Below, piece after piece: positions 24,036 through 45,548 of a stretch of DNA of 64,000 nt (its first letter is position 1; every line of letters begins with the position of its first letter). Made by a program: the position numbers and the translations under genes. The notes beneath the pieces are model-generated. The model made no database searches. It was not told the origin of the DNA and saw only the letters and a list, made by a program, of their open reading frames with translations. The DNA comes from Anaerolineaceae bacterium (lineage in GTDB: Bacteria > Chloroflexota > Anaerolineae > Aggregatilineales > Phototrophicaceae), in NCBI GenBank assembly GCA_026708325.1, contig JAPOVC010000021.1:124001-188000 (forward strand), written 5' to 3'.

Positions 24036-26228
24036 ATGAGTCAGGTCTCAACGAATGTGTTGCGCCTGTTGTTGCTGTCCCTGTGCCTGACCTGCATGGC
24101 GCCAGTTGCCCGGGCGCAGGCCAGCAATCCAGAACAAGAAGACTGTGAACTGCCCTCTTCCGGCGTCATCGTCGCCAGCGTTACCTATACGCTCGACGAG
24201 GACTGCACGCAGACGGGCACGCTGGAAATCAGGACCGCCAATACGCCCTCGGTCACGCTGACCATCAACGGCAACGGACACACCATTTCGAACGGGACCG
24301 AAACGGATTACGGCATGAATTTCCTCGTTGTTGACGACCAGGGCGCAAGCACCCTTTTCAACAAGGACAGCACTGCCAGCCCAAACGTCAAGGTCATCAT
24401 CAAAAACGTCACTTTCGATGGCAAGGACTGGTTGTTCAAAAGACACGTCCGCCAGGGCGAACGGGAGGACGGGTCGACCTGGCTCTATTCCGGGGGAATC
24501 GGCTCCTGGATTTCGGCCGAGGGTACGCTGGAGATGGAGAACGTCACCTTTACCAACGGCAATGGCAGCTGGCTGCGGGCCGAGGGAACGGCGACCCTGA
24601 GCAATCTGCTTTTTGAAGACAGCAAAACCTGGAGCTGGGGCTTCTCCCCTACCGTCCAGGGCTCCCTCTATGTAACCAAAACCGGCAGCGTAACACTCAA
24701 CAATGCCGTCTTCCGCGATATCAGGCGCACGGCCATCGCCGTGGAAAAGGGCGGCAGTTTAAGCACCACCGGTTGCCTGAGTTTCGTGCGCCCCTTCATC
24801 CACAAGGTGCTTCACAGCGGGTCCAATAGCGTAATGGGCACCTGGACTGACAGCAGCAGCGGTCCCTGCACTGGCAGCAATGACCCCGTTGGCAACGGCG
24901 GCTCGGCTGTAGTCACGTATTCCCCGGAACTGCTGGATTGCGGCCTGCCCAAGGACGCCGTGATAGGCGTGGACAGCGTCTACACGCTTAATCAGGACTG
25001 CGTTTGCCTGAAAAGATTCATCGTGGCCACCGGCGTGACCGTCACGATCAACGCCAATGGCCATCGCATCGTCGGCTGCGAAGGCACCCAGTTTTATGTA
25101 GCCGACACCCTTGCTCGTGGCGCCTCGATTTTCATCGGCGACATGGCCCACCTGATTATCAACAATGCCAACATTTACGGTGTCCAGACGAGGATTTATG
25201 GCGGCGCGCTGACCGTGGGAAATTCCATGATCGCGGAGACCTCCCCGACGCCGATACACAATCACGGCTTTGTCCACGTCTATAAGACGATCTTCCAGGA
25301 TAACCAGGGCTACAGCAACGGCAAGCGAGGCACTGTGTATTACGCCACCGACTCCTTTCGCCTGGGCCGGGCCGTCTTCAGGGACAATATGTTCCGCGGC
25401 AACTCGGTTGGCGCGGCCGAGGCGTTGGCCAGGGGCGGCGGGACGGCGATATACTTCTGCGGCGACAATGAACGTGAGGTTCCGGAGCCGGAGGACGGCA
25501 CTGAGTTGCCGCCGCTGGTCCCGCTTTGGCTGGGAACCGAAGGCGGCGCCGTTCATAATTTCTGCCCGGAGAACATCCCCCACAACAGTGCCGGAGGCAG
25601 TTGCTACAAGCAGCAGCCCCTGGGCGCCATCGGCCTGATCTGCCACGTCGACCGGCAGCCGGCGGCGATCGAAATCCTGGAAATTTCACGCCAGAGCGAG
25701 GGACGCCGCATTTTGCGCGTCGACCAGAGTCAGATTGAGGCGTCTGGCGCAGGCCTGGTCGCCTGTTCGGCTGACGGGCGCGCCGCCGTGCGAGTCGGAC
25801 TGACGGGGCCGGTGGGACAAATGATGGTGGGCACCAGGGCCTGGCGGGATGCGGGCCCGCAGCGGGTCATTCAGGTGTCCATGGGCCCCACCCTTGAGGA
25901 CAAGGTGCATCACGTCGTGATCGACGACGTACTCGACGGTCACGTCCTGGGCACCGTCGATACCCGCCCGGACAGCGCTCCCTGCCCCGTTACGGCCCAG
26001 GCCGTCGCCGCCGTCAGCGCGCCGGCTCCCGTGTATGCGCCGCCCGTCGTCACGCAGCAGCCCCGGGCGGACGGCTCGATCATCCACGTGGTCCAGGCCG
26101 GCGACACGATATGGACCATCGGCGTCGCCTATGACGTCCACCCCCATGTGATCATCGAGCGCAACGCGCTCGGCATGCGCGGTCGCTTCATTTACCCGGG
26201 CCAGGAGCTGCTCATCCGCGAGGCTTGA
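24036..26228 (+). CDS. Secreted beta-helix protein with C-terminal LysM
   Basis: A protein of 730 residues. Signal peptide 1-28 (LLLLSLCLTCMAPVARAQA). Two copies of a Cys-containing opening (CELPSSGVIVASVTYTLDEDC near 34, CGLPKDAVIGVDSVYTLNQDC near 308) each start a stretch of short repeats with VTLTINGNGHTI / VTVTINANGHRI, VIIKNVTFDG and similar, the look of a right-handed parallel beta-helix. A C-terminal module ends with a LysM motif (VVQAGDTIWTIGVAYDVHPHVIIERNALG...YPGQELLI, about 685-728). Likely a peptidoglycan-bound surface protein. It stands alone between repeat-filled gaps. Confidence 0.82.
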   Translation: MSQVSTNVLRLLLLSLCLTCMAPVARAQASNPEQEDCELPSSGVIVASVTYTLDEDCTQTGTLEIRTANTPSVTLTINGNGHTISNGTETDYGMNFLVVDDQGASTLFNKDSTASPNVKVIIKNVTFDGKDWLFKRHVRQGEREDGSTWLYSGGIGSWISAEGTLEMENVTFTNGNGSWLRAEGTATLSNLLFEDSKTWSWGFSPTVQGSLYVTKTGSVTLNNAVFRDIRRTAIAVEKGGSLSTTGCLSFVRPFIHKVLHSGSNSVMGTWTDSSSGPCTGSNDPVGNGGSAVVTYSPELLDCGLPKDAVIGVDSVYTLNQDCVCLKRFIVATGVTVTINANGHRIVGCEGTQFYVADTLARGASIFIGDMAHLIINNANIYGVQTRIYGGALTVGNSMIAETSPTPIHNHGFVHVYKTIFQDNQGYSNGKRGTVYYATDSFRLGRAVFRDNMFRGNSVGAAEALARGGGTAIYFCGDNEREVPEPEDGTELPPLVPLWLGTEGGAVHNFCPENIPHNSAGGSCYKQQPLGAIGLICHVDRQPAAIEILEISRQSEGRRILRVDQSQIEASGAGLVACSADGRAAVRVGLTGPVGQMMVGTRAWRDAGPQRVIQVSMGPTLEDKVHHVVIDDVLDGHVLGTVDTRPDSAPCPVTAQAVAAVSAPAPVYAPPVVTQQPRADGSIIHVVQAGDTIWTIGVAYDVHPHVIIERNALGMRGRFIYPGQELLIREA

Positions 26229-26535: not shown

Positions 26536-26575
26536 CCCTGGCTATACTCCGGCGCAGGTGGCGTCTGTGTCAGGA
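26536..26575 (+). promoter_or_regulatory. Desaturase promoter/leader block, copy 1
   Basis: CCTGGCTATACTCCGGCGCA begins a block of about 40 bases shared by all four desaturase genes. TATACT at 26543-26548 looks like a -10 and ends 36 bases before the ATG; CAGGAG near 26571 is the ribosome binding site. No clear -35. Confidence 0.6.
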
Positions 26576-26584
26576 GCATGAACA

Positions 26585-27730
26585 ATGGACTACCAGCCAC
26601 TGGACGAAGTGCGCAAGACGCTGCGGGTGGAGTGGTACCGCAGCCCGATCCCCGGCGCGAAACTGCGCGAACTTTCGCGCCGCAGCGACCGTCAGGCCTG
26701 GTTCCAGGCCGGCGGGCACCTGGCGCTTTTCGTCATCACTGCCGCGCTGGTCACCCACTTCTGGTCGCTGCAACTGTGGGGCGCCTTTCTGGTCGCGCTC
26801 TTCTGTCACGGCACGGTCACCAGCTTCTTCACCGGTGTGGCGCCGCACGAACTGGGCCACGGCACCGTCTTCCGCACGAAATGGCTCAACAAGGTCTTTC
26901 TCCACCTCTTCAGCCTCATCGGCTGGTGGGATATCTACGATTACGGCAGCAGCCACACCTATCACCATCGCTATACCCTGCACCCCGAGGGCGACCGCGA
27001 GAACCTCTTGCCGCTGGAACCCTCGCTGGCCTCCTTCTTCATGCTGCAGCTCTTCACAGTCAATCTGGTGACGCAGCCGCGACGCGTTTTCAGCAAGGGC
27101 GGTCTGATCTCGACCGTGCTGGTCACGCTCAAGGCCGCCTTCGGCGTCGTCGGACCGCCCGAGGTGCCAATCTTTGAATGGCTGCGCGCCCTGCACGTCG
27201 ACCAGCCGGAAGAGTTTCGCAAGTCGGTGCGCTGGTCGCGCATCCTGATCCTCTTCCACGGGGGTATTCTCGTCATCGCCATCGTGACCGGCCTGTGGGT
27301 GCTGCCGCTTATCTTTAGCGTCGCGCCCTTCATCGCCAACTGGCTGCACTACTTCGTCGGCATGACGCAGCATTGCGGCCTGATGGAAAACGTGCCCGAC
27401 TTCCGCAAGAGCGTGCGCTCGATGCGCCTCAACCCGCTTTTCTCCTTCCTCTACTGGCGCATGGAATGGCACACCGAGCACCACATGTACGCCGGCGTGC
27501 CCTGCTATAACCTCGGCCGGCTTTACGAGGCAATCGCCGACGACATGCCCGAGCCGCGCAGCCTCATCGGCGCCTGGCGCGAGATGCGCATGATCTGGCG
27601 CAAACAGAGGGGTGACCCCGACTACCAGTTCGACACGCCCCTGCCAGCGACGGCGCGCAGCGTCCGCAGGGACGCACCCGACGAACTGGAAAGCTCGATC
27701 GGCGACCTGGCGCCGGCGGGCCTGCGGTAG
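26585..27730 (+). CDS. Fatty acid desaturase-type di-iron membrane enzyme, copy 1
   Basis: A 381-residue membrane protein of the fatty-acid-desaturase superfamily, which inserts double bonds or hydroxyls with a di-iron centre. Three histidine boxes: HELGH at 88-92, HTYHH at 124-128, HTEHH at 296-300. Hydrophobic segments flank them (FVITAALVTHFWSLQLWGAFLVALF, ILILFHGGILVIAIVTGLWVLPLIF). The C-terminus is soluble and ends SSIGDLAPAGLR, shared by all four copies. It is the first of four same-strand paralogs. Substrate unknown; electron donor not encoded nearby. Confidence 0.9.
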   Translation: MDYQPLDEVRKTLRVEWYRSPIPGAKLRELSRRSDRQAWFQAGGHLALFVITAALVTHFWSLQLWGAFLVALFCHGTVTSFFTGVAPHELGHGTVFRTKWLNKVFLHLFSLIGWWDIYDYGSSHTYHHRYTLHPEGDRENLLPLEPSLASFFMLQLFTVNLVTQPRRVFSKGGLISTVLVTLKAAFGVVGPPEVPIFEWLRALHVDQPEEFRKSVRWSRILILFHGGILVIAIVTGLWVLPLIFSVAPFIANWLHYFVGMTQHCGLMENVPDFRKSVRSMRLNPLFSFLYWRMEWHTEHHMYAGVPCYNLGRLYEAIADDMPEPRSLIGAWREMRMIWRKQRGDPDYQFDTPLPATARSVRRDAPDELESSIGDLAPAGLR

Positions 27731-27747
27731 GGGCAGCGAGAGCGCAA

Positions 27748-28003
27748 GCTCGAAGCATCCCTCAGGGACGATTGATTTTTTCGCCCGTCCCTCCCCTATG
27801 TATGTCTGTAGGGGCGACTTGTCAATTCGCCCGCCCTGTCAGCAGGACGTACTCGGGCGACGTGATACGTCGCCCCTACAGCACAGGTCGGTTGCGGGAA
27901 AGGACTTGGGGTGAGGACTCTCTGGCTCGACGTTTGGCCCTCACCCCCCGGCCCCCTTTTTCCCGCTCAGTCGCGGGAAAAGGGATTTAGGGTGAGGGCC
28001 GCC
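27748..28003. repeat. Repeats between desaturase copies 1 and 2
   Basis: Contains a GAAGCATCCC unit (27752), a paired palindrome unit at 27807-27880 with perfect 12-base inverted ends TGTAGGGGCGAC/GTCGCCCCTACA, and a GGCCCTCACCC-to-GGGTGAGGGCC element at about 27938-28002 enclosing TTTTCCCGC-TCAGTC-GCGGGAAAA. No gene. Confidence 0.8.
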
Positions 28004-28020
28004 ATGCAGACCCCCACCCT

Positions 28021-28060
28021 CCTGGCTATACTCCGGCGCAGGTGGCACCTGTGTCGGGAG
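28021..28060 (+). promoter_or_regulatory. Desaturase promoter/leader block, copy 2
   Basis: Same block as at 26536; TATACT at 28027-28032, ending 36 bases before the ATG at 28069. Confidence 0.6.
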
Positions 28061-28068
28061 TGTGAGCG

Positions 28069-29244
28069 ATGAGTTACCCGCCGCTGGCTGACGTGCGCAA
28101 GACCTTTCGCGTCGACTGGTACCGCAGCCCGATCCCCGGCGCGAAACTGCGCGAGCTCTCGCGCCGCAGCGACCGGCAGGCCTGGTTTCAGGCCGGCGGT
28201 CACCTGGCCCTCTTCTGCCTGACCGCCGCGCTGGTCTTTCACTTCTGGTCGCTGCAGCTCTGGGGCGCCTTTCTGCTGGCGCTCTTCTGCCATGGCACGG
28301 TCACCAGTTTCTTCAGCGGCATCGCCTCGCATGAACTGGGCCACGGCACCGTCTTCCGCACCAAATGGCTCAACAAGGTCTTCCTGTATATCTTCAGCCT
28401 GATCGGCTGGTTCGACACCTACGACTACAACATGAGCCATACCTACCACCATCGCTACACCCTGCATCCCGAGGGCGACCGCGAGGTGCTGCTGCCGATA
28501 GAACCCACGCTGGCCTCCTTCTTCATGCTGCAACTTTTCACGATTAGCCTTGCGACGAAGCCGCGGCGCGTCTTCGACAAGGGCGGCCTGATCTCGACCG
28601 TGGTGGTCACGCTGCGAGCCGCCTTCGGCGGCGTCGGCCCGGACTTCGGCGTCGTCGTCGGCCGGGACAGGTTGCCGGCATTCGAATGGCGGCGCGCCCT
28701 GCACGCCGACCAGCCGGAGGAGTTCCGCAAGTCGGTCCGCTGGTCGCGCATTCTGCTACTCTTCCATGGCAGCATTTTGCTGATTGCCATCGCCACCGGC
28801 CTGTGGGTGCTGCCGCTGATCTTCAGCACCGCGGTCTTCACCGCCAACGCGCTGCGCTACTTCATCGCCCTGCCGCAGCATTGCGGCCTGCGCGACAACG
28901 TCAACGACTTCCGCAAGAGCGTGCGCTCGATGCGCGTCAACCCGCTCTTCTCCTTCCTCTACTGGCGCATGGAATGGCACCTCGAGCACCACATGTACGC
29001 CGGTGTGCCCTGCTACAACCTCCCCAAACTCTACGAGGCGGTTGCCGACGACATGCCCGAGCCGCGTACGCTTATCGGCGCCTGGAAGGAAATGCGCATG
29101 ATCTGGTGCAGGCAGAAGGGTGACCCCGACTTCCAGTTCGACACGCCCCTGCCGCCGACGGCCAGGGTCGCCCGCAGCGACGCGCCGGAAGAAATCGAAC
29201 TGGAGAGCTCCATCGGCGACCTGGCGCCGGCGGGCCTGCGGTAG
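28069..29244 (+). CDS. Fatty acid desaturase-type di-iron membrane enzyme, copy 2
   Basis: A 391-residue paralog of the gene at 26585. Histidine boxes HELGH, HTYHH and HLEHH are all present, as are the two paired membrane segments. It has about 7 extra residues (GPDFGVVVGRDRLPAFEW) before the second membrane pair compared with its sisters. Bases 28846-29066 are identical to 30344-30564 of copy 3, a sign of recent gene conversion or duplication. It probably has its own promoter in the conserved leader. Confidence 0.9.
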   Translation: MSYPPLADVRKTFRVDWYRSPIPGAKLRELSRRSDRQAWFQAGGHLALFCLTAALVFHFWSLQLWGAFLLALFCHGTVTSFFSGIASHELGHGTVFRTKWLNKVFLYIFSLIGWFDTYDYNMSHTYHHRYTLHPEGDREVLLPIEPTLASFFMLQLFTISLATKPRRVFDKGGLISTVVVTLRAAFGGVGPDFGVVVGRDRLPAFEWRRALHADQPEEFRKSVRWSRILLLFHGSILLIAIATGLWVLPLIFSTAVFTANALRYFIALPQHCGLRDNVNDFRKSVRSMRVNPLFSFLYWRMEWHLEHHMYAGVPCYNLPKLYEAVADDMPEPRTLIGAWKEMRMIWCRQKGDPDFQFDTPLPPTARVARSDAPEEIELESSIGDLAPAGLR

Positions 29245-29248
29245 GGGC

Positions 29249-29523
29249 GCCCTCACCCCCCGGCCCCCTCTCCCTCAGGGAGAGGGGGAGCAATGGCTCG
29301 TTGCGACTTCCTGGAAAGCATTTTTATTCCTTCCGGGGCAGGCTCCCCTCTCGTGAACCAGTGATGCGAAGATTGCTAATTCCAGACTGTTTGCCCCTTT
29401 GCCTGACTATGGAATCCGGAGAAACCAGGCGTTCGAAAAACTCTCGTCCCGACTCAGGTTCGTCCCTAGCCCTGCAAGTCTCCCCCTCTCCCTGAGGGAG
29501 AGGGGGTCGGGGGGTGAGGGCCG
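29249..29523. repeat. GCCCTCACCC-ended element between copies 2 and 3
   Basis: A 275-base element with GCCCTCACCCCCCGGCCCC at the left and its inverted partner GGGGTGAGGGCC at the right. CTCTCCCTCAGGGAGAG-type palindromes lie inside each end. The A+T-richer centre (29293-29480) contains no convincing gene. Confidence 0.75.
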
Positions 29524-29542
29524 CCAGGCAGCGCCTCACCTC

Positions 29543-29582
29543 CCTGGCTATACTCCGGCGCAGGTGGCACCTGTGTCAGGAG
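29543..29582 (+). promoter_or_regulatory. Desaturase promoter/leader block, copy 3
   Basis: Same block; TATACT at 29549-29554, ending 36 bases before the ATG at 29591. Confidence 0.6.
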
Positions 29583-29590
29583 TGTGAGAG

Positions 29591-30742
29591 ATGAGTTACC
29601 CACCGCTGGCTGACGTGCGCAAGACCTTCCGCGTCGACTGGTACCGCAGCCCGATCCCCGGCGCGAAACTGCGCGAGCTCTCGCGCCGCAGCGACCGCCA
29701 GGCCTGGATCCAGGCCGGCGGCCACATGGCGCTCTTCATTCTCACCGGCGCGCTGGTCTTTCACTTCTGGACGCTGCAACTCTGGGGCGCTTTTCTCGCC
29801 GCGCTCTTCTGCCACGGTACGGTCACCAGCTTCATGCGGGGCGTGGCCGCGCACGAACTGGGCCACGGCACGGTCTTTCGCACCAAATGGCTCAACAGGG
29901 TCTTCCTCTATCTCTTCAGCCTGATGGGCTGGTGGGACCACCACGACTACAGCAGCAGCCACACCTATCACCATCGCTACACCCTGCACCCCGAGGGCGA
30001 CCGCGAGGTGCTGCTGCCGATCGAACCCACGCTGGCCTCGACCTTTGTGCTGCAACTCTTCACGATCAACCTGTTGACCAAGCCGCGGCGCATCCTGGAC
30101 AAGGGCGGCCTGATCTCAACCGTGGTGGTCACGCTGCAGGCCGCCTTTGGCGTCGTCGGCCCGGACAGGGTGCCGGTATTCGAATGGCGGCGCGCCCTGC
30201 ACGTCGACCAGCCCGAGGAGTTCCGCAAGTCGGTGCGCTGGTCGCGCATCCTGCTGCTCTTCCACGGCTCGATTCTGGTCATCGCCATCGCCAGCGGCCT
30301 GTGGGTGCTGCCCCTGATCTTCAGCACCGCGTCCTTCACCGCAAACGCGCTGCGCTACTTCATCGCCCTGCCGCAGCATTGCGGCCTGCGCGACAACGTC
30401 AACGACTTCCGCAAGAGCGTGCGCTCGATGCGCGTCAACCCGCTCTTCTCCTTCCTCTACTGGCGCATGGAATGGCACCTCGAGCACCACATGTACGCCG
30501 GTGTGCCCTGCTACAACCTCCCCAAACTCTACGAGGCGGTTGCCGACGACATGCCCGAGCCGCGCACGCTCATCGGCGCCTGGAAAGAAATGCGTATGAC
30601 CTGGCGCAAACAGAAGGAAGACCCCGGCTACCAGTTCGACACGCCCCTGCCGCCGACGGCGCGGCGCGTCCGCAGCGAAGAGCCGGAAGAAATCGAACTG
30701 GAGAGCTCCATCGGCGACCTGGCGCCTGCCGGCCTGCAGTAG
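29591..30742 (+). CDS. Fatty acid desaturase-type di-iron membrane enzyme, copy 3
   Basis: A 383-residue paralog. HELGH, HTYHH (in DHHDYSSSHTYHHRY) and HLEHH are intact. The N-terminus MSYPPLADVRKTFRVDWYRSPIPGAKLRELSRRSDRQ is nearly the same as copy 2. The stretch 30344-30564 is base-for-base identical with copy 2, whereas the segments just before and after differ. It runs in line with the other copies. Confidence 0.9.
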   Translation: MSYPPLADVRKTFRVDWYRSPIPGAKLRELSRRSDRQAWIQAGGHMALFILTGALVFHFWTLQLWGAFLAALFCHGTVTSFMRGVAAHELGHGTVFRTKWLNRVFLYLFSLMGWWDHHDYSSSHTYHHRYTLHPEGDREVLLPIEPTLASTFVLQLFTINLLTKPRRILDKGGLISTVVVTLQAAFGVVGPDRVPVFEWRRALHVDQPEEFRKSVRWSRILLLFHGSILVIAIASGLWVLPLIFSTASFTANALRYFIALPQHCGLRDNVNDFRKSVRSMRVNPLFSFLYWRMEWHLEHHMYAGVPCYNLPKLYEAVADDMPEPRTLIGAWKEMRMTWRKQKEDPGYQFDTPLPPTARRVRSEEPEEIELESSIGDLAPAGLQ

Positions 30743-30802
30743 GGGCGCCCTCACCCCCGGGCGTCTTTGCCCCGAGAGATGAGGACGAAAACTATTGAAG
30801 CA

Positions 30803-30933
30803 TGCCCTCACCCCCCGCCCCCCTCTCCCTCAGGGAGAGGGGGAGAGCTGTATACACAAACAAGCATTAAAGTCCCTCTCCCTGAGGGAAGGGCTCCCGC
30901 GATTGAGCGGGAAAGGATTTAGGGTGAGGGCCG
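30803..30933. repeat. GCCCTCACCC-ended element between copies 3 and 4
   Basis: About 130 bases with inverted ends, CTCTCCCTCAGGGAGAG-type palindrome at left and GGGCTCCCGCGATTGAGCGGGA hairpin near the right end. A partial left end (GCCCTCACCCCC) also occurs at 30747. Confidence 0.7.
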
Positions 30934-30952
30934 CCAGGCGGACCGTCCCCTC

Positions 30953-30992
30953 CCTGGCTATACTCCGGCGCAGGTGGCATTTGTGTCAGGAG
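30953..30992 (+). promoter_or_regulatory. Desaturase promoter/leader block, copy 4
   Basis: Same block; TATACT at 30959-30964, ending 36 bases before the ATG at 31001. The invariant distance in all four copies also argues for ATG 31001 as the true start of copy 4. Confidence 0.6.
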
Positions 30993-31000
30993 TTTGCGAG

Positions 31001-32152
31001 ATGAGTTACCCACCGCTGGCCGACGTGCGCAAGACACTGCGCGTGGAGTGGTACCGCAGCCCCATCCCCGGAAAGAGACTGCGCGAGCTGTCCCGCCGCA
31101 GCGACCTGCAGGGCTGGTTCCAGGCCGGCGGGCACCTGGCCCTCTTCTGCCTCACCGGCGCGCTGGTCTTTCACTTCTGGTCGCTGCAACTTTGGGGCGC
31201 CTTTCTGCTGGCGCTTTTCTGCCACGGCACGGTCACCAGCTTTTTCAGCGGCATCGCTCCGCATGAACTTGGCCACGGCACCGTCTTCCGCACCAAATGG
31301 CTCAACAAGGTCTTCCTGCACATCTTCAGCCTGATCGGCTGGTTCGATACCTACGACTACAACATGAGCCACACCTACCACCACCGCTACACCCTGCACC
31401 CCGAGGGCGACCGCGAGGTGCTGCTGCCGATAGAGCCCACGCTGGCCTCGACCTTTGTGCTGCAACTCTTCACGATAAACCTGCTGACGCGGCGCGGGCG
31501 CACCTTCAGCAAGGGCGGGCTGCTGGACAACATCGTCACGTCCCTGCGCACCGCTCTCGGTCTCAACGACCCGGGCAGGGCGCCCGGTACGGACTGGGTG
31601 CGCGCCCTGCACCAGGACCAGCCGGAGGAATACCGCAGGACCGTGCTCTGGTCGCGCATCCTGATTCTCTTCCACGGTTCAATTCTGGTCATCGCCATCC
31701 TGACCGGCCTGTGGGTGCTGCCGCTGATCTTCAGCACCGCAGTCTTCACCGCCAACTGGCTGGGCTACTTTCTCGGCCTGCCGCAGCACTGCGGCCTGCA
31801 GGACAACGTCAACGACTTCCGCAAGAGTGTGCGCTCGATGCGCCTCAACCCCTTCTTCTCCTTCCTCTACTGGCGCATGGAATGGCACATCGAACACCAC
31901 ATGTACGCCGGCGTGCCCTGCTACAACCTCGGCCGGCTCTACGAGGAAATCGCCGACGACATGCCCGAGCCGCGCACCCTTGTCGGCGCCTGGCGCGAGA
32001 TGCGCGCCGTCTGGCGCAAACAGAAGGAAGACCCCGATTACCAGTTCGACACGCCCCTGCCAGCGACGGCGAAGCTCGCCCGCAGGGATGCCGTGGAAGA
32101 TCTCGAACTGGAAAGCTCGATCGGCGAACTGGCGCCGGAAGGGCTGAGGTAG
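31001..32152 (+). CDS. Fatty acid desaturase-type di-iron membrane enzyme, copy 4
   Basis: A 383-residue paralog. ATG 31001 (MSYPPLADVRKTLRVEWYRSP) aligns with the other three; an in-frame ATG at 30974 would lie inside the conserved leader and is rejected. HELGH, HTYHH and HIEHH boxes are intact. The central stretch (RRGRTFSKGGLLDNIVTSLRTALGLNDPGRAPGTDWVRALHQDQPEEYRRTV) is the most diverged of the set, so it may prefer another substrate or chain position. Confidence 0.9.
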   Translation: MSYPPLADVRKTLRVEWYRSPIPGKRLRELSRRSDLQGWFQAGGHLALFCLTGALVFHFWSLQLWGAFLLALFCHGTVTSFFSGIAPHELGHGTVFRTKWLNKVFLHIFSLIGWFDTYDYNMSHTYHHRYTLHPEGDREVLLPIEPTLASTFVLQLFTINLLTRRGRTFSKGGLLDNIVTSLRTALGLNDPGRAPGTDWVRALHQDQPEEYRRTVLWSRILILFHGSILVIAILTGLWVLPLIFSTAVFTANWLGYFLGLPQHCGLQDNVNDFRKSVRSMRLNPFFSFLYWRMEWHIEHHMYAGVPCYNLGRLYEEIADDMPEPRTLVGAWREMRAVWRKQKEDPDYQFDTPLPATAKLARRDAVEDLELESSIGELAPEGLR

Positions 32153-32381: not shown

Positions 32382-34124
32382 GTGAGCGTCATCCTCGGCA
32401 TCAACAGCGAACACGCCGGCGCCTCGGCCGCCCTGGTCATCGACGGCCAGCCGGTCGCGGCCATCGCCGAGGAGCGCCTCAATCGCGTCAAGTATTACGC
32501 CGGTTTCCCGCGCCAGGCCATTCGCCAGGTGCTGGACATGGCCGGCATCGGCCCGCAGGAGGTCGACTGCGTCGCCATTCCGCGCGATCCCGCGGCCAAC
32601 CTGACGCGCAAGGCCGCCTTCCTCTTCGGCAACCCGACGCGCCTGCCCGCCCTGCTGCAGGCCGGCGCCGGTCAGGTGAAACAACTGGACGTGAAATCGC
32701 AACTGGCCGCGGAATTCGGCATCGAAGCTGCCGCCCTGACCTTCCGCCAGCTGCGCGTCGAACACCACCTGGCCCATATCGCCAGCGCCTACTTCAGCTC
32801 GCCCTATGACGATGCCGCCGGATTCAGCGTGGACGGCTCCGGCGATTTCGTCACCTGCATGCTGGCCCGTTGCCAGGGCAATGACATTGTGGTGCTGCAG
32901 CGCATCCACGTGCCGCATTCGCTGGGTTCGCTCTACACCATGATCTGCCAGTTCATTGGCTACGGGCGCTATGGCGACGAGGGCAAGGTGATGGGTCTGG
33001 CGCCCTATGGCGAGGACGTCTACCACGAGCATTTCGACGACATGCTGCGCCTGACCGACGAGGGCCTTCACCTCAACAGTCGCTGGTTCCTGCCCTTCGG
33101 CGCCGAGCAGTCCATCAGCATCAACGCGCGCGGCGAAATGGAAATCGGGCGGCACTGGTCCGACCACATGGTCGCGACTTTCGGCGCGCCACGGGCGCCG
33201 GGCAGCCAGATCACGCAGCGCGACATGGACCTCGCCCGCGGCCTGCAGGTCGCCTTTGAACGCGCCTGGCTGCATTTGCTGCAGCGTCTGCACGCCCTCG
33301 CCCCTTCCGACCAGGTGGTGATGGCCGGCGGTTGCGCGCTCAACAGCGTCGCCAATGGCCTCGTCACAGCGCAGACGCCTTTCCACAAGACCTGGATCCA
33401 CCCCGCCGCCGGCGACGAGGGCCTGTCGCTGGGCGCGGCGCTCCATGCCAGCCGGCAAACCCCCGGCACCGGCGAGCGCTACGTGATGGGCAGCGCCGGA
33501 CTCGGCCCGGAGTACACGCAGCAGGAGATTCGCAGCGCCCTGGCGCGTCGGGGCGTGGAGGCGCAGGAGCTGGCGGAGCCGCAACTGCTGGAACGCACGG
33601 CGGCGGCGATTGAGGCCGGGGCGGTCGTCGGCTGGTTCCAGGGCCGCATGGAATGGGGGCCGCGCGCCCTTGGCAACCGCTCCATCCTCGCCCACCCCGG
33701 CCTGCCGCACATGAAGCAGACCCTCAACGACCGCATCAAGCGCCGCGAGTGGTTCCGCCCCTTCGCGCCGGCCGTGCTGGCGGAGGCGCAGACCCGGGTC
33801 TTTGAGCAGGGCGAGCCCTCGCCCCACATGCTGCACGTCTATCGCATCCGCGATGACTGGCGCGAGCGTCTCTGCGCCGTAGCTCACGTCGACCAGACCG
33901 GTCGTCTGCAGACCGTGCTGCGCGAGCACAACCCGCGCTATTACGACCTGTTGAAGGCCTTCGAAGGGCGCACGGGCCTGCCCGTCGTGGTCAACACCAG
34001 CTTCAACGAGAACGAGCCCGTCGTTTGCACGCCGGAAGAAGCCATCGACTGCTTCCTGCGCACCCGCATGGACCTGCTCGTCATCGGCGACAGTTTCTGC
34101 GAAAAGCCGGACTCTCGCGCCTGA
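32382..34124 (+). CDS. Carbamoyltransferase (NodU/CmcH family)
   Basis: A 580-residue enzyme that transfers a carbamoyl group from carbamoyl phosphate via ATP to a hydroxyl, as in nodulation factors and antibiotics. Seen: the ASKHA-like opening VILGINSEHAGASAALVIDG, metal/nucleotide motif HHLAHIASAYFSSPYDDAAGFSVDGSGD (about 127-155), MAGGCALNSVANG, and the C-terminal domain RMEWGPRALGNRSILAHP and NTSFNENEPVVCTPEEAI. GTG start with AGGAGCG upstream. No polyketide or glycosyltransferase genes are near, so the acceptor is unknown. Confidence 0.92.
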   Translation: MSVILGINSEHAGASAALVIDGQPVAAIAEERLNRVKYYAGFPRQAIRQVLDMAGIGPQEVDCVAIPRDPAANLTRKAAFLFGNPTRLPALLQAGAGQVKQLDVKSQLAAEFGIEAAALTFRQLRVEHHLAHIASAYFSSPYDDAAGFSVDGSGDFVTCMLARCQGNDIVVLQRIHVPHSLGSLYTMICQFIGYGRYGDEGKVMGLAPYGEDVYHEHFDDMLRLTDEGLHLNSRWFLPFGAEQSISINARGEMEIGRHWSDHMVATFGAPRAPGSQITQRDMDLARGLQVAFERAWLHLLQRLHALAPSDQVVMAGGCALNSVANGLVTAQTPFHKTWIHPAAGDEGLSLGAALHASRQTPGTGERYVMGSAGLGPEYTQQEIRSALARRGVEAQELAEPQLLERTAAAIEAGAVVGWFQGRMEWGPRALGNRSILAHPGLPHMKQTLNDRIKRREWFRPFAPAVLAEAQTRVFEQGEPSPHMLHVYRIRDDWRERLCAVAHVDQTGRLQTVLREHNPRYYDLLKAFEGRTGLPVVVNTSFNENEPVVCTPEEAIDCFLRTRMDLLVIGDSFCEKPDSRA

Positions 34125-34197: not shown

Positions 34198-35523
34198 CTA
34201 CCACTGCACGTACCTGACGGTGTTGTGCGTGTCGATGGTGATGATATAGGGCTTGTCGACGTCCGGCCCCTTGTCGGCGTAATAGGTGCTGAGGGTCATG
34301 ACGCCCTCGCCATCGTAAGTGAGCGTGTAGGACTTGTTGGCGGCGCTGTTCGTGCCGCTGGCCAGGGTACTGGCCGCCGCCTGGGACTCGTGTAAGGCGC
34401 TGCTGCTGCTCACCGTCGCCAGATCCGTGGTGCTGCTGTCCTGGAAGACGCCGTAGAGCGTGTATTGGGTGTAATCGCTGTTGGCGCAGACCTTGATCGG
34501 CGCGGCGTTGTCGGTGTTCAGGCAGTTGCCGAAGGATCCCGAGCCGCCGGCACCACCGGAGCCGGCGCCATTGCCGTTGCCGTTGTTGTTGTTGCCGCCA
34601 TTGTTGCCACTCGTTGCCGACGACCACAGCGACGCGCAATCCGGATTGGCGTCATTCGGGTCCTCACAGAAATAGTAGACCACGGGGTGGCTGTCCACAT
34701 AGCGCGAGGAATCCTCCTGCGCCAGGCTGCGCAGGATGATCCGCAGGATGTCTCCCACGTCGTATTGCACCAGATTTGAACCAAACTGGATGGTCTCCAC
34801 GGTTTCTTCGGCCTGGGCCTGGGCCCCTTCCCCGCCAAGATTTTCCTGGCCGCTGGCCGAATTGCCATCCGAGTTGTCAGCCGACCAGCCAAAGCCCTGG
34901 GCGTTGGTGATGACGTTGCCAACCAGAGGAACGCTGACCTGGAAGGTGCCGCTGTCGTCGCTGGTCTGGGACTCCGCTGACAGGGCCTGGGCGTTGGGGT
35001 CCGGCGTGGCGGTTGGCTCGGGCGTCACCAGGCTGATGGTCGCGTTCAGTGGCGGTGGCAGGGATCGAATGATGGTCTCGGGATCATCGCAGGATTCGTG
35101 CACCGGATAGCAGAAGATGAGGCGCGCGCTGTTCGTGTAGGTGGCGTCATCGAGGGCGGCTATCTGCACCAGCGAGAAGGAAATGATGTGGCCGTCCTCG
35201 TATTCGAGGTCTTCGGCCTCTACCGTTATGGTGCCGGCATCGGAGGGGGTCAGGCTGCCTTCGGCTTCGCCCCGGGTACTCGCGTTCACCGCCAGCCAGT
35301 CGACCGATTCAGCGTTGGCGAACTGGGTGGTGTTGGGCGAAACAATGGTGAAGTTGCCGGTCTCGTCACCATTGTCATCGATGTTCGAGTTCAGGGTGAT
35401 GACCGGCGACAGGGGCGTCGGTAGCGGAGTTTTATCCGTACCCTGCGCCAGCAGGTGGCTGGCCAGCAGCAGGGCCGGCAACAAATACAGGACCAGGACG
35501 TGGCGACCAGTCAGGGATTTCAC
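34198..35523 (-). CDS. Secreted protein of unknown family, paralog A
   Basis: A protein of 441 residues from GTG 35523 (VKSLTGRHVLVLYLLPALLLASHLLAQG, a signal peptide); GGAAGGAGAG lies 7 bases upstream. The region around 55-190 is beta-rich (DAGTITVEAEDLEYEDGHIISFSLVQIA, LIFCYPVHESCDDP); a Q/E/A-rich linker follows, then SSRYVDSHPVVYYFCEDPN, a Gly/Asn low-complexity stretch and a conserved tail ANSDYTQYTLYGVFQDSS...STYYADKGPDVDKPYIITI ending VRYVQW. Six or more cysteines are kept in both paralogs. I do not recognise the family. Its sister is directly upstream. Confidence 0.8.
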   Translation of the reverse strand: MKSLTGRHVLVLYLLPALLLASHLLAQGTDKTPLPTPLSPVITLNSNIDDNGDETGNFTIVSPNTTQFANAESVDWLAVNASTRGEAEGSLTPSDAGTITVEAEDLEYEDGHIISFSLVQIAALDDATYTNSARLIFCYPVHESCDDPETIIRSLPPPLNATISLVTPEPTATPDPNAQALSAESQTSDDSGTFQVSVPLVGNVITNAQGFGWSADNSDGNSASGQENLGGEGAQAQAEETVETIQFGSNLVQYDVGDILRIILRSLAQEDSSRYVDSHPVVYYFCEDPNDANPDCASLWSSATSGNNGGNNNNGNGNGAGSGGAGGSGSFGNCLNTDNAAPIKVCANSDYTQYTLYGVFQDSSTTDLATVSSSSALHESQAAASTLASGTNSAANKSYTLTYDGEGVMTLSTYYADKGPDVDKPYIITIDTHNTVRYVQW

Positions 35524-35687
35524 GAATGCGCTCTCCTTCCCCTCGCCAGGACAGCCATCCCCATGGATCTGGCCGCCCCGCAGGTAACCGGTCACGAAGC
35601 CAGAACAGGGCAGCAGACCCTGACACAAACACTTACAACCTTGGGTGGCCTCAGTGACTCAATTGGTGGATGCTGCACAGAGGGTTA

Positions 35688-35950: not shown

Positions 35951-37294
35951 CTACCACTGCACGTAGCGCACCGTATGGTGCTCGTCGATGGTGATGACGT
36001 AGGGCTTGTCGACGTCCGGCCCCTTGTCGGCGTAGTAGGTGCTGAGCGTCATCGTGCAGTCACCATCGTAGCTGACGGTATAGGCCTTGTTGGTGGCGAC
36101 GTTGGTGCCGCTGGCCAGATTGTTGTCGGCGGCGGCCTTCGCGCCGCAGAGACTGGAGGCGCTGGTGACGCTGACGAGCGATTGCACGCTGCTGTCCTGG
36201 TAAACGCCGTAGAGCGTGTAGGACGTGTAGTCGGCGTTGGCGCAGACCTTGATCGGGGCGCCGCCGTCAGTATTCAGGCAGGTCCCGCTGGTCCCGCCAT
36301 CGCCGCCATCGCCGTCGTCACCGTCACCACCAGGGGGCGAAGAACCCCAGAGGTTGGGGCAATTCACGTTCGGATCGGTGCAGTAATAGTAGACGACCGG
36401 GTGGCTGTCCACGTAGCGATTGGAACCACTCGGGGCCAGGGCGCGCAGGGTGATGCGAATGGCTTCCTCTTCCTGGAAATCGATCAGGTCCGCGCCAAAT
36501 TGAATGACTTCAGTGCTTTCCACCGCCTGAGCATCGGCCTCGGCCTGGGCCTGGGCCTGGAATTCGGCCTGGGCCTGACCGTTGCCCCGATTTTCTGTAC
36601 CGCTGGCCGAATTGCCATCCGAGTTGTCCGCCTGCCAGTTGTACCCCTGGGCGTTGGTGATGACCGAGCCTATCTCGGGAATGGAAATCGTAATGGTGCC
36701 GCCCCCGCCGCTGGTCTGGGCCTGGGCCTCCCCCTCTGCGGGCGGCTCGGGAGTCACGAGAGCGATGGTCGCACCCAGTGGCGGCGGCAAGGAGCGGATC
36801 AGGGTTCTGGGGTCGCGACACGATTCGTGGACCGGGTAGCAGAAGATCAGGCTGGGGCTGTCGCTGTAGGTCTCGTCATCAAGGGCGGCGAGGCTGGTCA
36901 GCGAGAAGGAGATGATGTCACCTGCCTGGTAACCCAGGTCCTGGGCGCCAATGCGGATGGTGCCGGCATCGGCGGGCGCGATCGTGTCTTCCTCGACGTC
37001 GCGCGTCGACTCGTTGGCCGCGATCCATTCCACGGATTCAGCGTTGTCAAACTGGCTCGTGTTGGAAGATGTGATGACAAAGTCGCCGGTTTCCGTGTCC
37101 ACACCATCTGTGGTGACGATGTTCGAATCAAGAGTCACGACCGGCGACTCCGGCACGGGCAGCGGCGTCTTGGGCACTGGCGTGGCCGTGGGCTCCGGAG
37201 TCGTTCCAGCACCCTGAGCCAGGGCGTGTCCCGTTGCTGCCAGCAACAACACAAGGATCAAACACAAGACGAAATGGCGCTTATCAGTGTTCAT
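35951..37294 (-). CDS. Secreted protein of unknown family, paralog B
   Basis: A protein of 447 residues from ATG 37294 (MNTDKRHFVLCLILVLLLAATGHALAQG, signal peptide) with GGGAAGG upstream; an earlier ATG at 37342 would add basic residues and is less likely. Same order as paralog A: Pro/Thr linker, beta-rich domain with LIFCYPVHESCRDPRTLIRSLPPP, Q/A/E-rich linker (QAQAEFQAQAQAEADAQA), NRYVDSHPVVYYYC, Gly/Asp-rich spacer and the YTLYGVYQDSS...YYADKGPDVDKPYVITI...VRYVQW tail. Separated from paralog A by its own terminator, so the two are expressed independently. Confidence 0.8.
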   Translation of the reverse strand: MNTDKRHFVLCLILVLLLAATGHALAQGAGTTPEPTATPVPKTPLPVPESPVVTLDSNIVTTDGVDTETGDFVITSSNTSQFDNAESVEWIAANESTRDVEEDTIAPADAGTIRIGAQDLGYQAGDIISFSLTSLAALDDETYSDSPSLIFCYPVHESCRDPRTLIRSLPPPLGATIALVTPEPPAEGEAQAQTSGGGGTITISIPEIGSVITNAQGYNWQADNSDGNSASGTENRGNGQAQAEFQAQAQAEADAQAVESTEVIQFGADLIDFQEEEAIRITLRALAPSGSNRYVDSHPVVYYYCTDPNVNCPNLWGSSPPGGDGDDGDGGDGGTSGTCLNTDGGAPIKVCANADYTSYTLYGVYQDSSVQSLVSVTSASSLCGAKAAADNNLASGTNVATNKAYTVSYDGDCTMTLSTYYADKGPDVDKPYVITIDEHHTVRYVQW

Positions 37295-37574
37295 GAGTGA
37301 CCTTCCCAACCTTAATGTGGCTGTCCGTGCGGTCATAAGCATACGTTAACTCGCCAAACTTCGCCAGCGCAAAACCAACACATACTTCGCGCCCCTGTCA
37401 GCGTTTCGCCGACAACGCAGGGACTTTCTTACACCCTGCGGCGTTGAAGTGTCAGCACGTCCTCACACTATAGCGTTTCCCGACTGTGTCGCAAACTCTC
37501 GCCCTGTTAGAAATATCCCGCTTCCCGTCGCCCCGCCTCATTCAGGAATCGCCCGGGGGGGCTGCCGGCGCAGT

Positions 37575-41189: not shown

Positions 41190-42053
41190 ATGGACCGTCG
41201 CATCTTTCTCGGCTTTGCCGCCCCCAGCATGGTGATCATGACCCTGTTGATGGTCGTTCCCCTGGCCATGGCCATCTGGCTGGGCATGCACTTTATGACC
41301 TACGACAACGTGCTGGAACCGCAGTGGGTCGGATTGCGCAACTATGGCGACGCGCTCGGCGACGAGCGCTTCTGGCAGTCCGTCACCTTCACCGCCATTT
41401 ACATCGCCGTGGTCGTGCCGTCATGGATCGTCATCGGCTTTGTCGTAGCCCTTTTGCTGGACCAGGTGACCGGCCTGGCGCGCGGCGTCTACCTGTCCGT
41501 TTTCCTCCTGCCCTTCATCATCGTGCCCGTCGTCGGCACCATCATGTTTCGTCAACTCTTTGAACCTTCCGGGCTGTTGCGCTGGGTCTACCAGGAACTG
41601 TTCAACGAGCGCTTCCGTTACACAGAGCAGACCGTCAAGTCCCTCGTTCTGATTCACGGTATCTGGCACGTCACGCCCTTCACCCTGGTCGTCTACTTCG
41701 CCGGTCTGCAGACCCTGCCCCAGGACCTGATGGAAGCCTCCGGCATCGACGGCGCCAGTCGCCTTCAGAAGATTCGCCACATCGTCATCCCGCACGTGCG
41801 CTCGCTCACCCTGTTCATCCTGCTCTTCAGCATCATGGATTCCTACCGCGTCTTTGACAGCGTCTACGTGTTGACGGAATTGAACCCGCTCTACAAGGCC
41901 AACACCATCATGACCTACACCTTTCAGACGGCGACGCAACTGGAACGCCTTGGCAAGGCCAATGCCATGGCCGTCCTCACCGTCATCGGCATTATGGTGG
42001 TGCTCATCCCCAATCTCTACCTGTCCTGGAAAGAACAGATTGCGGAGCGCTAG
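41190..42053 (+). CDS. Sugar ABC permease (MalF type), importer 1
   Basis: A 287-residue inner-membrane protein with six helices, beginning FLGFAAPSMVIMTLLMVVPLAMAIWLGMHFM. EAA loop: QDLMEASGIDGASRLQKIRHIVIPHVR. Pairs with the following MalG-type permease, 3 bases downstream. It is paralogous to the gene at 46565. Confidence 0.92.
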   Translation: MDRRIFLGFAAPSMVIMTLLMVVPLAMAIWLGMHFMTYDNVLEPQWVGLRNYGDALGDERFWQSVTFTAIYIAVVVPSWIVIGFVVALLLDQVTGLARGVYLSVFLLPFIIVPVVGTIMFRQLFEPSGLLRWVYQELFNERFRYTEQTVKSLVLIHGIWHVTPFTLVVYFAGLQTLPQDLMEASGIDGASRLQKIRHIVIPHVRSLTLFILLFSIMDSYRVFDSVYVLTELNPLYKANTIMTYTFQTATQLERLGKANAMAVLTVIGIMVVLIPNLYLSWKEQIAER

Positions 42054-42056
42054 GCG

Positions 42057-43061
42057 ATGGACCCCGTGACCAGCCGCCCCGGCCGCCTCCTGATTCATGC
42101 TTTCCTGTTGATTTTCGCCATCTACAGTTTCGTGCCCTTCTTGTGGACGACCCTGCAATCCATCAAAAAGCTCAAGGACGCCAGTTCGCGCACCCCGAAA
42201 TTCCTCTTCACACCCTCGCTGGAAAACTATGAGGAACTCTGGCTGCGCTCGACGCCGGACAATCCGGAAGCCCTCGCCTTTCTGTTTTTGCTGGCTCTGC
42301 TGATTCTGCTCTGTATGCTGCTCTTCGCCCAATACATCCCCTTGCGCCGCAGCATCGTGTACGGCGCTGCGACCCTCGGTTTTATCGCGCTGCTCTGGAT
42401 GATGCCCCGACTGCTGCATACGGCGCGTTTTTACGATTACTTCATCAATACCCTGGTCGTCACCGGCGGCACCATCCTCGTCTCGATCAGCATCGGCTGT
42501 CTGGCGGGTTACGCCCTCGCCCGCTACGCCGGCCTGCTGGGCGTGGTGGTGCTGATCGCGGCGCTGGCCTTCCGCGCCCTGCCGCGCCTCGCCTACGTCC
42601 TGCCCTATTACTGGATCGGCAGCGCGCTCAACCTCATCGACTCCCACATCCTCGTCATCGTCACCCTCGTCGCCGTCAACCAGCCCTTCACCATCTGGAT
42701 GCTGCGCAGCTTCTTCATGGAGATTCCGAAGGACCTGGAGGAATCGGCCATGGTCGACGGCGCCGGGCGTCTCGTCGCCTTCCTGCGTGTCATCATCCCG
42801 GTCATGTGGCCGGGAATCGTCGCCACTGCGCTCTTCACCCTGCTGCTGGCCTACAACGAGTTCCTGCTGGTTCGTATATTGACCCAGACCAACTGGACCC
42901 TGCCGGTGGCCATCTCGCGCTTCACCGGCGGCGAGGACCCGCGCCACCTGACCCTGGCGGCCGCGGCCTCGGTGTCGGCCACAATCCCCATCGTCATCGT
43001 CATCCTCTTTTTCCAGAAGCAACTGGTCAAGGGACTGGCGGCCGGCGCGGTGAAGGGTTAG
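42057..43061 (+). CDS. Sugar ABC permease (MalG type) with extra membrane segments, importer 1
   Basis: A 334-residue permease, longer than the usual 270-290. After the first helix (LIHAFLLIFAIYSFVPFLWTTLQSIKK) comes an insert with two extra hydrophobic segments (ALAFLFLLALLILLCMLLFAQYIPL, IVYGAATLGFIALLWMM) before the standard core (FINTLVVTGGTILVSISIGCLAGYALAR). EAA loop: KDLEESAMVDGAGRLVAFLRVIIPVMWP; ends GAVKG. The sister gene at 47431 has an even larger insert at the same place. Confidence 0.92.
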   Translation: MDPVTSRPGRLLIHAFLLIFAIYSFVPFLWTTLQSIKKLKDASSRTPKFLFTPSLENYEELWLRSTPDNPEALAFLFLLALLILLCMLLFAQYIPLRRSIVYGAATLGFIALLWMMPRLLHTARFYDYFINTLVVTGGTILVSISIGCLAGYALARYAGLLGVVVLIAALAFRALPRLAYVLPYYWIGSALNLIDSHILVIVTLVAVNQPFTIWMLRSFFMEIPKDLEESAMVDGAGRLVAFLRVIIPVMWPGIVATALFTLLLAYNEFLLVRILTQTNWTLPVAISRFTGGEDPRHLTLAAAASVSATIPIVIVILFFQKQLVKGLAAGAVKG

Positions 43062-43068
43062 GGGTTAC

Positions 43069-44067
43069 ATGGGAGATCGCCTGGCGCAGGCCAAACAGAT
43101 GGTGTGGGACTTCGCGCAAGCCCGCGAAGAGGGTCCCGCCGCGCGTCGCGATCTGGCCCGCACCCTCGCGCCAGACCTTGAGTGGCACGGCATCCAGCCC
43201 CTGCGTACGCTGGCAGGCCGCGACGCCTTTCTGGAGCGCTTTCTGCAGCCCCTCTACCGCGCCTTCCCGGACTGGCAGCGCCGACCCTACCTCTTCCTCG
43301 GCGGCGAATTCGAGGGCAACGTCTGGGTCGCCGCCATGGGCGACGCCATCGGCAGCTTCGTGGACGCGTGGCGTCTGACGCCGGACCTCGTCATCGCGCC
43401 GACGGGTTTCAGCCTGCGCACGCGCTACGGCGAGTTCTGTCGCGTGGAGGGCGGCCGCATCGTCGAAATGCGTTACCTGATGGACCTGCCCGCCCTGCTG
43501 CTGCAGGCCGGTATCGACCTGATCCCGCCTGGCGCCGCGCACGAGGTCTGGCCGCCCGGCCCGGCCACCGGCGACGGTCTCGACCATGCCGCTCGCGACC
43601 CCGCCGAGTCGGCCAGGACCCTGGCGCTGGTCGAGGCGATGATCTTCGGCGGCCTCAACAAGTACGACGGCCACGACCCCGACAGCCAGGACCTGGTGGA
43701 ATACTGGCATCCGCAGATGACCTGGCACGGGCCGCGCGGCACGGGTTCCTCGCTGGACCTCGACGAGTTCCGCCACCTGGCCCAGGCGCCCATCTTGCGC
43801 ATGACGCCGGACCGCGTGGGCGTGGGCCATCGCGCGCGCATCGCCGAGGGCCACTTCGCCGCCTCCACCGGCTGGCCCGCCTCGGTGGGCACCATGACCG
43901 GGGACTTCCTCGACTGGCCCGCCAGCGGCCGCGAGATGCGCCTGAACGTCATGGACTTCTGGCGCCGTGAAGGCGACATGCTGCGCGAGGACTGGGTGAT
44001 CATCGACATGATAGACGCCGCCGCCCAGGCCGGCGTCGACGTCTGGCGCAAGGCCGGCCTGCGATGA
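43069..44067 (+). CDS. Double NTF2/SnoaL-like protein, gene 2
   Basis: A protein of 332 residues with two SnoaL-like halves. First: ARTLAPDLEWHGIQPLRTLAGRDAFLERFLQPLYRAFPDWQRRPYLFLGGEFEGNVWVAAMGDAIG. Second: about 190-325, with QMTWHGPRGTGSSLDLDEFRHLAQAPILRMTPDRVG and DFLDWPASGREMRLNVMDFWRREGDMLREDWVIIDMID. The W-[YH]-GP-x-G-x-G motif is shared by the other island members. It begins 7 bases after the permease stop, so cotranscription is near certain. Confidence 0.8.
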   Translation: MGDRLAQAKQMVWDFAQAREEGPAARRDLARTLAPDLEWHGIQPLRTLAGRDAFLERFLQPLYRAFPDWQRRPYLFLGGEFEGNVWVAAMGDAIGSFVDAWRLTPDLVIAPTGFSLRTRYGEFCRVEGGRIVEMRYLMDLPALLLQAGIDLIPPGAAHEVWPPGPATGDGLDHAARDPAESARTLALVEAMIFGGLNKYDGHDPDSQDLVEYWHPQMTWHGPRGTGSSLDLDEFRHLAQAPILRMTPDRVGVGHRARIAEGHFAASTGWPASVGTMTGDFLDWPASGREMRLNVMDFWRREGDMLREDWVIIDMIDAAAQAGVDVWRKAGLR

Positions 44068-44120
44068 ATCGCCCGTTGGTCGCCGCTGAGCCTCACCACC
44101 CCTTTTCGCAAAATGGCGAC

Positions 44121-44144
44121 CGTCCCCCTGGGGACGCGCCTTTT
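44121..44144 (+). terminator. Weak terminator/hairpin between the two importers
   Basis: CGTCCCC/GGGGACG stem with a tight loop, followed by CGCC and four T. It lies 54 bases after the SnoaL gene 2 stop and 41 bases before binding protein 2, so it may partly separate the two importer units. Confidence 0.4.
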
Positions 44145-44184
44145 GTATCGTTTCATTTACCGTTGTGACAGAGAGGACTCTCAC

Positions 44185-45474
44185 ATGAAGAAGTTCGTTC
44201 TACTGCTCGCCGTACTGGGGCTGGCCCTGACCGGCCTGCCCGCCATGGCGGACATGCACGGCTGTGACGTCGCCGCGCCGGCGGAACCGGTGCAGGTCAA
44301 CTTCATCGGCTGGACCTTCCCGATTCTTGACTTCTACGCCAGCGAAATCGAAAGCTGCAACCAGATCGAGAATCTGGACGTCAACGCCCAGGTGTTGCAG
44401 AGCGCCGACGCGCAGAATGAAATGCGTCTGGCCGCGTCCAGCACCGGCGCTTCGCCCTACGACATTATCCACGGCAGCAACGCTTTCATCGGCGAACTGG
44501 CCGCCCTGGGCTGGCTGATGCCGCTCAACGACCTGATCGACGAATACAGCGAGGCCTATGACCTCGGCGACATGTCGGACGCCATGTACGCTGCGGCCTC
44601 CCTTGACGGCAATGTCTACGGCATCCCGATCATCGTCAACACGTCGATCTTCATGTACAACAGAGATCTCCTTGAGGCCGCCGGCGTCGAGCCGCCGCAG
44701 ACCTATGACGACGTCATCGGCATCTGCAACTCGATGGCCCTTGAGGGCGCGGGCGCGGACATGGGCTTCGGCCTGGTTGTTTCCGCCGGCTGGGCCTGGC
44801 GCGTCGAGTACGTCAACCTCTACGGCACCTACGGTGGCCATCTGCTGGATGAGAACCTGATGCCGGCCTTCAACAGCGAGACCGGCGTGGCCGCGCTGGA
44901 CAAGCTGCTGGAAATCGTCGATGCCTGCCTCGGCGAGGAAGGCGTCCTGCTCTCCACCGATGACGTGCAGGCCGGCCTCGCCAACGGCAGCATCGCCATG
45001 GCGCACATCTGGGCCAGCCGCGCCGCCATGATGGACGACGAGGAACTCTCCGACGTGGTCGGTGTGATCGAGTTCGCCCCGGCGCTGCACGCCACAGTGG
45101 ATACGCCCAAACGCGGCGGAATCCCCTGGGCGGACTTCCTCGCCATCCCCGCCACCAGCGAGATCGACAAGGACCTGCTCTTCCAGATCATCATGGAAGC
45201 GGCTGACCTCGACTCGCAGCTGGGCGCGGCAGAGTTCGGTCTTGTGCCGCGTAACGGCGCCTCGGCCAACGCGCCCCGTTATTCCGAAGCCTCCCTGACG
45301 ACTATCGCCGAGGGCGGACCCGCCATCGACCATCCGGCCCAGCAGATCGCCAACTCGGCCCTGGGGCAATTCCTGCCCATGGCCGCCACGGGCGAAATGA
45401 CCTCCGCGGAGGCCCTGCAGGCCGCGGCCGATCTCTACGTTGAGGAAGCGACGGCCCAGGGTTACATCGGCTAG
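44185..45474 (+). CDS. Extracellular sugar-binding protein 2 of the island
   Basis: A 429-residue paralog of the binding protein at 39802. Sec signal 1-22 (KKFVLLLAVLGLALTGLPAMA), then CDVAAPAEPVQVNFIGWTFPILDFYASEIESC and SPYDIIHGSNAFIGELAALGWLMPLNDLIDEY. ATG 44185 is chosen because MKK begins the signal and GAGAGGA lies upstream. The two binding proteins agree along the whole length but differ in the presumed ligand loops, so related rather than the same ligands are likely. Confidence 0.92.
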   Translation: MKKFVLLLAVLGLALTGLPAMADMHGCDVAAPAEPVQVNFIGWTFPILDFYASEIESCNQIENLDVNAQVLQSADAQNEMRLAASSTGASPYDIIHGSNAFIGELAALGWLMPLNDLIDEYSEAYDLGDMSDAMYAAASLDGNVYGIPIIVNTSIFMYNRDLLEAAGVEPPQTYDDVIGICNSMALEGAGADMGFGLVVSAGWAWRVEYVNLYGTYGGHLLDENLMPAFNSETGVAALDKLLEIVDACLGEEGVLLSTDDVQAGLANGSIAMAHIWASRAAMMDDEELSDVVGVIEFAPALHATVDTPKRGGIPWADFLAIPATSEIDKDLLFQIIMEAADLDSQLGAAEFGLVPRNGASANAPRYSEASLTTIAEGGPAIDHPAQQIANSALGQFLPMAATGEMTSAEALQAAADLYVEEATAQGYIG

Positions 45475-45490
45475 GCTTCTTCGCACATTG

Positions 45491-45522
45491 CTGACGGGCG
45501 GGCAGGCCTGCCCGCCTGTCAG
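45491..45522 (+). terminator. Strong hairpin after binding protein 2
   Basis: CTGACGGGCGGGCA...TGCCCGCCTGTCAG, a stem of about 14 bases with one mismatch and a 4-base loop, 16 bases after the stop and without a T-run. Same placement as the hairpin after binding protein 1. Confidence 0.6.
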
Positions 45523-45548
45523 TTATACGAACAGGGGCGGAAAAGCAC

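Follow-up and report, generated by a model that had tools for sequence, protein, structure and literature searches.

An apparently old, diversifying tandem array of four desaturase-like genes with duplicated promoter and leader sequences in an Anaerolineaceae genome

The stretch of Anaerolineaceae DNA that we analysed (the window: 64,000 nt from a host genome of 3.3 Mb; coordinates are positions within it) contains a run of desaturase genes, each preceded by a nearly identical promoter and leader. This raises the question of whether the genes are equivalent copies that increase the amount of one enzyme, parts of a single operon or regulon, or specialised enzymes that each inherited the same upstream sequence. 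As an earlier note on this DNA had proposed, the run consists of four tandem desaturases: all four open reading frames are intact, lie on the + strand, match FA_desaturase (Pfam PF00487), and are 77-89% identical to one another in pairwise comparisons (Table 1). That note also held that only repeats lie between the copies, which is roughly correct: set against a 444 kb sample, each intercopy stretch has 35-82% of its length in repeats that recur elsewhere, although the segment at about 29305-29465, between copies 2 and 3, is unique within that sample.

Table 1. Features of the desaturase array in window coordinates; G001 and G002 are two congeners
Feature	Position	Strand	Remarks
Promoter and leader of copy 1	26536..26584	+	-10 TATACT at 26543-26548; SD CAGGAG
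Desaturase copy 1, 381 aa	26585..27730	+	ortholog of G001_1 and G002_1
Intercopy stretch 1-2	27731..28019		dispersed repeats for the most part
Promoter and leader of copy 2	28020..28068	+	TATACT at 28027-28032; SD-like CGGGAG
Desaturase copy 2, 391 aa	28069..29244	+	middle group with copy 3
Intercopy stretch 2-3	29245..29541		repeats at both ends; middle unique
Promoter and leader of copy 3	29542..29590	+	TATACT at 29549-29554; SD-like CAGGAG
Desaturase copy 3, 383 aa	29591..30742	+	gene-conversion-like tract with copy 2 in 3' part
Intercopy stretch 3-4	30743..30951		dispersed repeats for the most part
Promoter and leader of copy 4	30952..31000	+	TATACT at 30959-30964; SD-like CAGGAG; same as the G001_3 leader at 49/49 positions
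Desaturase copy 4, 383 aa	31001..32152	+	ortholog of G001_3 and G002_3; copy-specific residues lie in 165-216
Carbamoyltransferase (PF02543/PF16861)	32382..34124	+	downstream neighbour, syntenic in both congeners

Several neighbouring genes were also recorded. Just 5' of the array, a gene at 24036-26228 (+) encodes a secreted beta-helix-like protein with a C-terminal LysM; in both congeners, the open reading frames of at least 150 aa listed 5' of the array include no beta-helix/LysM-like one. Beyond the carbamoyltransferase lies an adjoining pair of secreted-looking proteins on the - strand (34198-35628 and 35951-37342), which are 56% identical, have no Pfam match, and share the ending ADKGPDVDKPY.ITID..HTVRYVQW; relatives of this pair adjoin the carbamoyltransferase in both congeners. 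Farther along, at 41190-46568 (+), ABC transporter genes alternate with those of two SnoaL-like double-domain proteins (43069-44067 and 45549-46568).

The four proteins score 89.8-98.5 bits against PF00487, for which the gathering cut-off is 29.7, and they carry the three histidine boxes of a di-iron site (HELGH at 88-92, HTYHH at 124-128, and WHxEHH at 295-300), which, like a QHCG motif at 262-265, are invariant or nearly so among 39 relatives. An AF2 model (pLDDT 79.6, pTM 0.81, with low confidence around 120-170) matched FtAlkB with a Z of 10.3 over 279 residues and SCD1 with a Z of 4.8, and a Z of 16-17 was obtained for one unnamed chain from the FtsHi motor complexes of Chlamydomonas. The fold, as modelled, is that of the AlkB/SCD-type membrane di-iron oxygenases. 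The array enzymes resemble members of the FA_desaturase superfamily such as AlkB and stearoyl-CoA desaturase in their Pfam match, their histidine boxes, and their predicted fold, but differ from them in having no close characterised relative among PDB sequences or NCBIfam equivalogs. Neither phmmer with one of the proteins nor a 39-row profile search of PDB sequences returned a true solved relative, and every characterised NCBIfam equivalog fell far below its cut-off; CrtR and CrtW (carotenoid enzymes), DesB, and GntB were rejected at 12-30 bits against cut-offs of 350-500. The enzymes are predicted to be O2-dependent desaturases or hydroxylases.

We found that both congeners carry three copies, each with its own leader, followed by the carbamoyltransferase as in the window, and that copies cluster in the gene tree by position and not by genome. 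Copy 1 corresponds to the first gene of each congener (90-95% identity) and copy 4 to the third (93-96%), while copies 2 and 3 group with the middle genes. Values of dN/dS were 0.09-0.39 (NG86) for all pairs computed, indicating purifying selection. Twenty-seven residues are fixed within positional groups. Those specific to copy 4 all fall (14/14) in 165-216, a block that lies after the second histidine box and before the third and that could also stem from conversion by an unseen paralog. Neighbouring copies have also exchanged sequence in a conversion-like manner: copies 2 and 3 have in common a tract at nt 784-996 in which 66 polymorphic sites match (0/5000 permutations), copies 1 and 2 of G001 share one at their 3' end, and the leader plus the preceding 50 nt of copies 2 and 3 of G002 are 96% alike, versus 74% at four-fold sites. 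Together, the shared tracts and the positional tree indicate that the array's history combines old duplication with divergence and local gene conversion. Orthology by position, purifying selection, and intact histidine boxes likewise point, at the level of sequence, to an old array, diversifying and in part made uniform again by gene conversion, and not to a recent dosage amplification.

Could the copies nevertheless be equivalent, having been multiplied with their promoter in a way that raises the amount of enzyme? Such an amplification would fit the near-identical promoter and leader on every copy, the parts kept alike by gene conversion, and a copy number that is not constant within the genus (three or four). 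We regard it as unlikely, however, because position-specific sequence, including the 27 group-fixed differences, is kept across species, and because a purely dosage-driven array would tend towards homogeneity, whereas these copies are only 77-89% identical. The proposal that a complete expression unit was amplified holds as an account of the array's history, although the mechanism is an ordinary one; as a dose increase it is disfavoured. Given that the copies and their order are kept in close species, the array probably encodes specialised enzymes and not a freshly increased dose of one.

We also considered how the genes are expressed. The block described in the earlier note is present before every copy, with TATACT ending 36 bases from the ATG at all four genes and an SD-like element (CAGGAG, or CGGGAG in copy 2) 5' of every start. 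Searching the whole 3.3 Mb genome for the exact 17-mer GGCTATACTCCGGCGCA returned four matches, each before one array desaturase, and four further sites with one or two mismatches. The -10 element, the 5' leader, and the Shine-Dalgarno sequence are part of the duplicated unit in 10/10 copies from the three species. The block is not a product of chance, and it is common to the copies by descent with their genes.

Promoter statistics were drawn from the 444 kb sample, in which genes were called by a procedure of our own, and from one whole-genome pattern count. In that count, GCTATACT had 134 copies, compared to 27 for a reversed control pattern. Fifteen occurrences in the sample fall within the 100 nt that precede a predicted start; when the four desaturases are set aside, 9 of 11 sit 29-40 nt from the start, which has a p near 4e-7 under uniform placement, although the range was picked after inspection. 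These patterns identify GCTATACT, where it stands some 29-40 bases ahead of a start, as the genome's ordinary -10 element, and the array genes carry it at the usual distance. Their predicted promoter is thus not special but was simply inherited with each gene copy. The description of the promoter and leader as cloned is borne out to the extent that the -10, leader, and SD were duplicated with the gene; its implication of a distinctive promoter is not, since GCTATACT is common. We found no -35 match to TTGACA at the array, and a consensus sigma-70 scan found no -35/-10 pair.

It is quite unlikely that the genes instead form one operon, with transcription starting before copy 1 or upstream, reading through all four genes, and leaving the other -10 elements as relics of duplication. 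The intercopy gaps yielded no terminator-like site, which leaves room for one long transcript, and in a sister genus the homologous genes sit 30-210 bp apart without TATACT, in an operon-like arrangement. In the window, however, the gaps between genes are 258-346 bp, and the -10, the 36-base spacing, and the SD are kept before nearly all copies in three species, whereas the preceding 50 nt are only 34-74% alike in most compared pairs. Very improbable is a further alternative, that the CCGGCGCAGGTGGC leader is a shared regulatory site coordinating the four genes as a regulon: although the exact 17-mer is found only at the array and a 26-nt core around the -10 is nearly invariant (25-26/26 identical among the four window copies), the leader shows no overall excess conservation over four-fold synonymous sites in most pairs, so that its similarity outside that core is explained by descent with the gene, and in G002 the leader downstream of the -10 is changed in all copies, so that a fixed operator conserved across species beyond descent was not kept and the block was rejected as an exclusive regulatory site.

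We conclude that this is probably an old tandem array of di-iron paralogs, built of ordinary-promoter units and encoding a specialised set of enzymes that share one chemistry. Each gene would have been copied along with the -10, short leader, and ribosome-binding site in front of it, yielding four units (three in the congeners) that are apparently independently promoted, their promoters being predicted by position and sequence. Purifying selection would have accompanied the later divergence of the copies, giving at least three position-specific types that predate the species split and have been retained since, while neighbours now and then underwent gene conversion. Most likely, the enzymes carry out one chemistry with different substrate or position preferences and so may have diverged in function, that chemistry being a putative O2-dependent desaturation or hydroxylation of a lipid or lipid-like membrane substrate. 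Expression would come from ordinary housekeeping-type promoters. Compared with other tandem duplications that carry a promoter with the gene, this one, whose unit includes the -10, leader, and SD, differs in nothing but gene family and lineage.

Close homologs were confined to the window's family in a sample of the class (5/298 genomes). Within that family, the desaturase is present in 44/98 genomes, and the window's genus and g18 are the only ones with adjacent multi-copy arrays. Named genomes with a homolog belong to Chloroflexota, Poribacteria, Alphaproteobacteria, and Trueperaceae, with one Spirochaetaceae bin in addition; identities beyond the window's genus are 61-74%. In genome G047, a desaturase homolog (L047:4492-5635) is apparently in two pieces, with a change of frame around residue 72 that would reflect either an assembly error or a pseudogene. 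Sister-genus Chloroflexota arrays (L075-L088, L095, L108) resemble ours in enzyme family (65-74% identity) and in having two to three tandem copies with their own orthologous positions, but they lack TATACT within 100 nt of their closely spaced copies and have PhyH dioxygenases upstream. A sugar-type ABC transporter is nearby, and in several there is also a LacI/DeoR-type regulator. These arrays form a clade separate from the window genus in the gene tree; thus, expansion apparently took place on two or more occasions, although a similar pattern could result from gene conversion. A PhyH partner was sought beside the window array and not found, and the genome has 27 PhyH genes elsewhere, among them three in tandem at G000:C25:105787-108170 (-). 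Single-copy Alphaproteobacteria and Poribacteria showed no recurrent neighbours except unrelated ABC transporters, and a plasmid search returned only distant desaturases (<60% identity, the best among the matches listed at about 30-32%).

Marine sponges are the almost exclusive setting of Poribacteria (PMC3909097). The bin codes RHO, COS, and APA fit the sponge hosts sampled in PMC8163846, and we infer that they denote those hosts. The array is a case of ordinary tandem paralogy, with recurrent expansion, apparently in sponge-associated Chloroflexota; papers on sponge Chloroflexi and desaturases, judged by titles, abstracts, and term counts, describe no such array. A broader and decidedly tentative possibility is that these enzymes belong to a previously undescribed di-iron oxygenase family with repeatedly expanded arrays, serving as an oxidative module for a sponge-holobiont compound, with the copies differing in the position or congener on which they act. 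Its range would cover Chloroflexota (apparently mainly sponge symbionts), Poribacteria, and some Alphaproteobacteria, and in one genus the arrays stand beside PhyH dioxygenases and a sugar-type ABC importer.

While the promoter side of the array is ordinary, its three to four paralogs in three species, with single-copy outgroups, offer a natural series for following specificity change in a di-iron oxygenase, within an uncharacterised enzyme family that is common to several phyla and many of whose carriers are apparently sponge symbionts.
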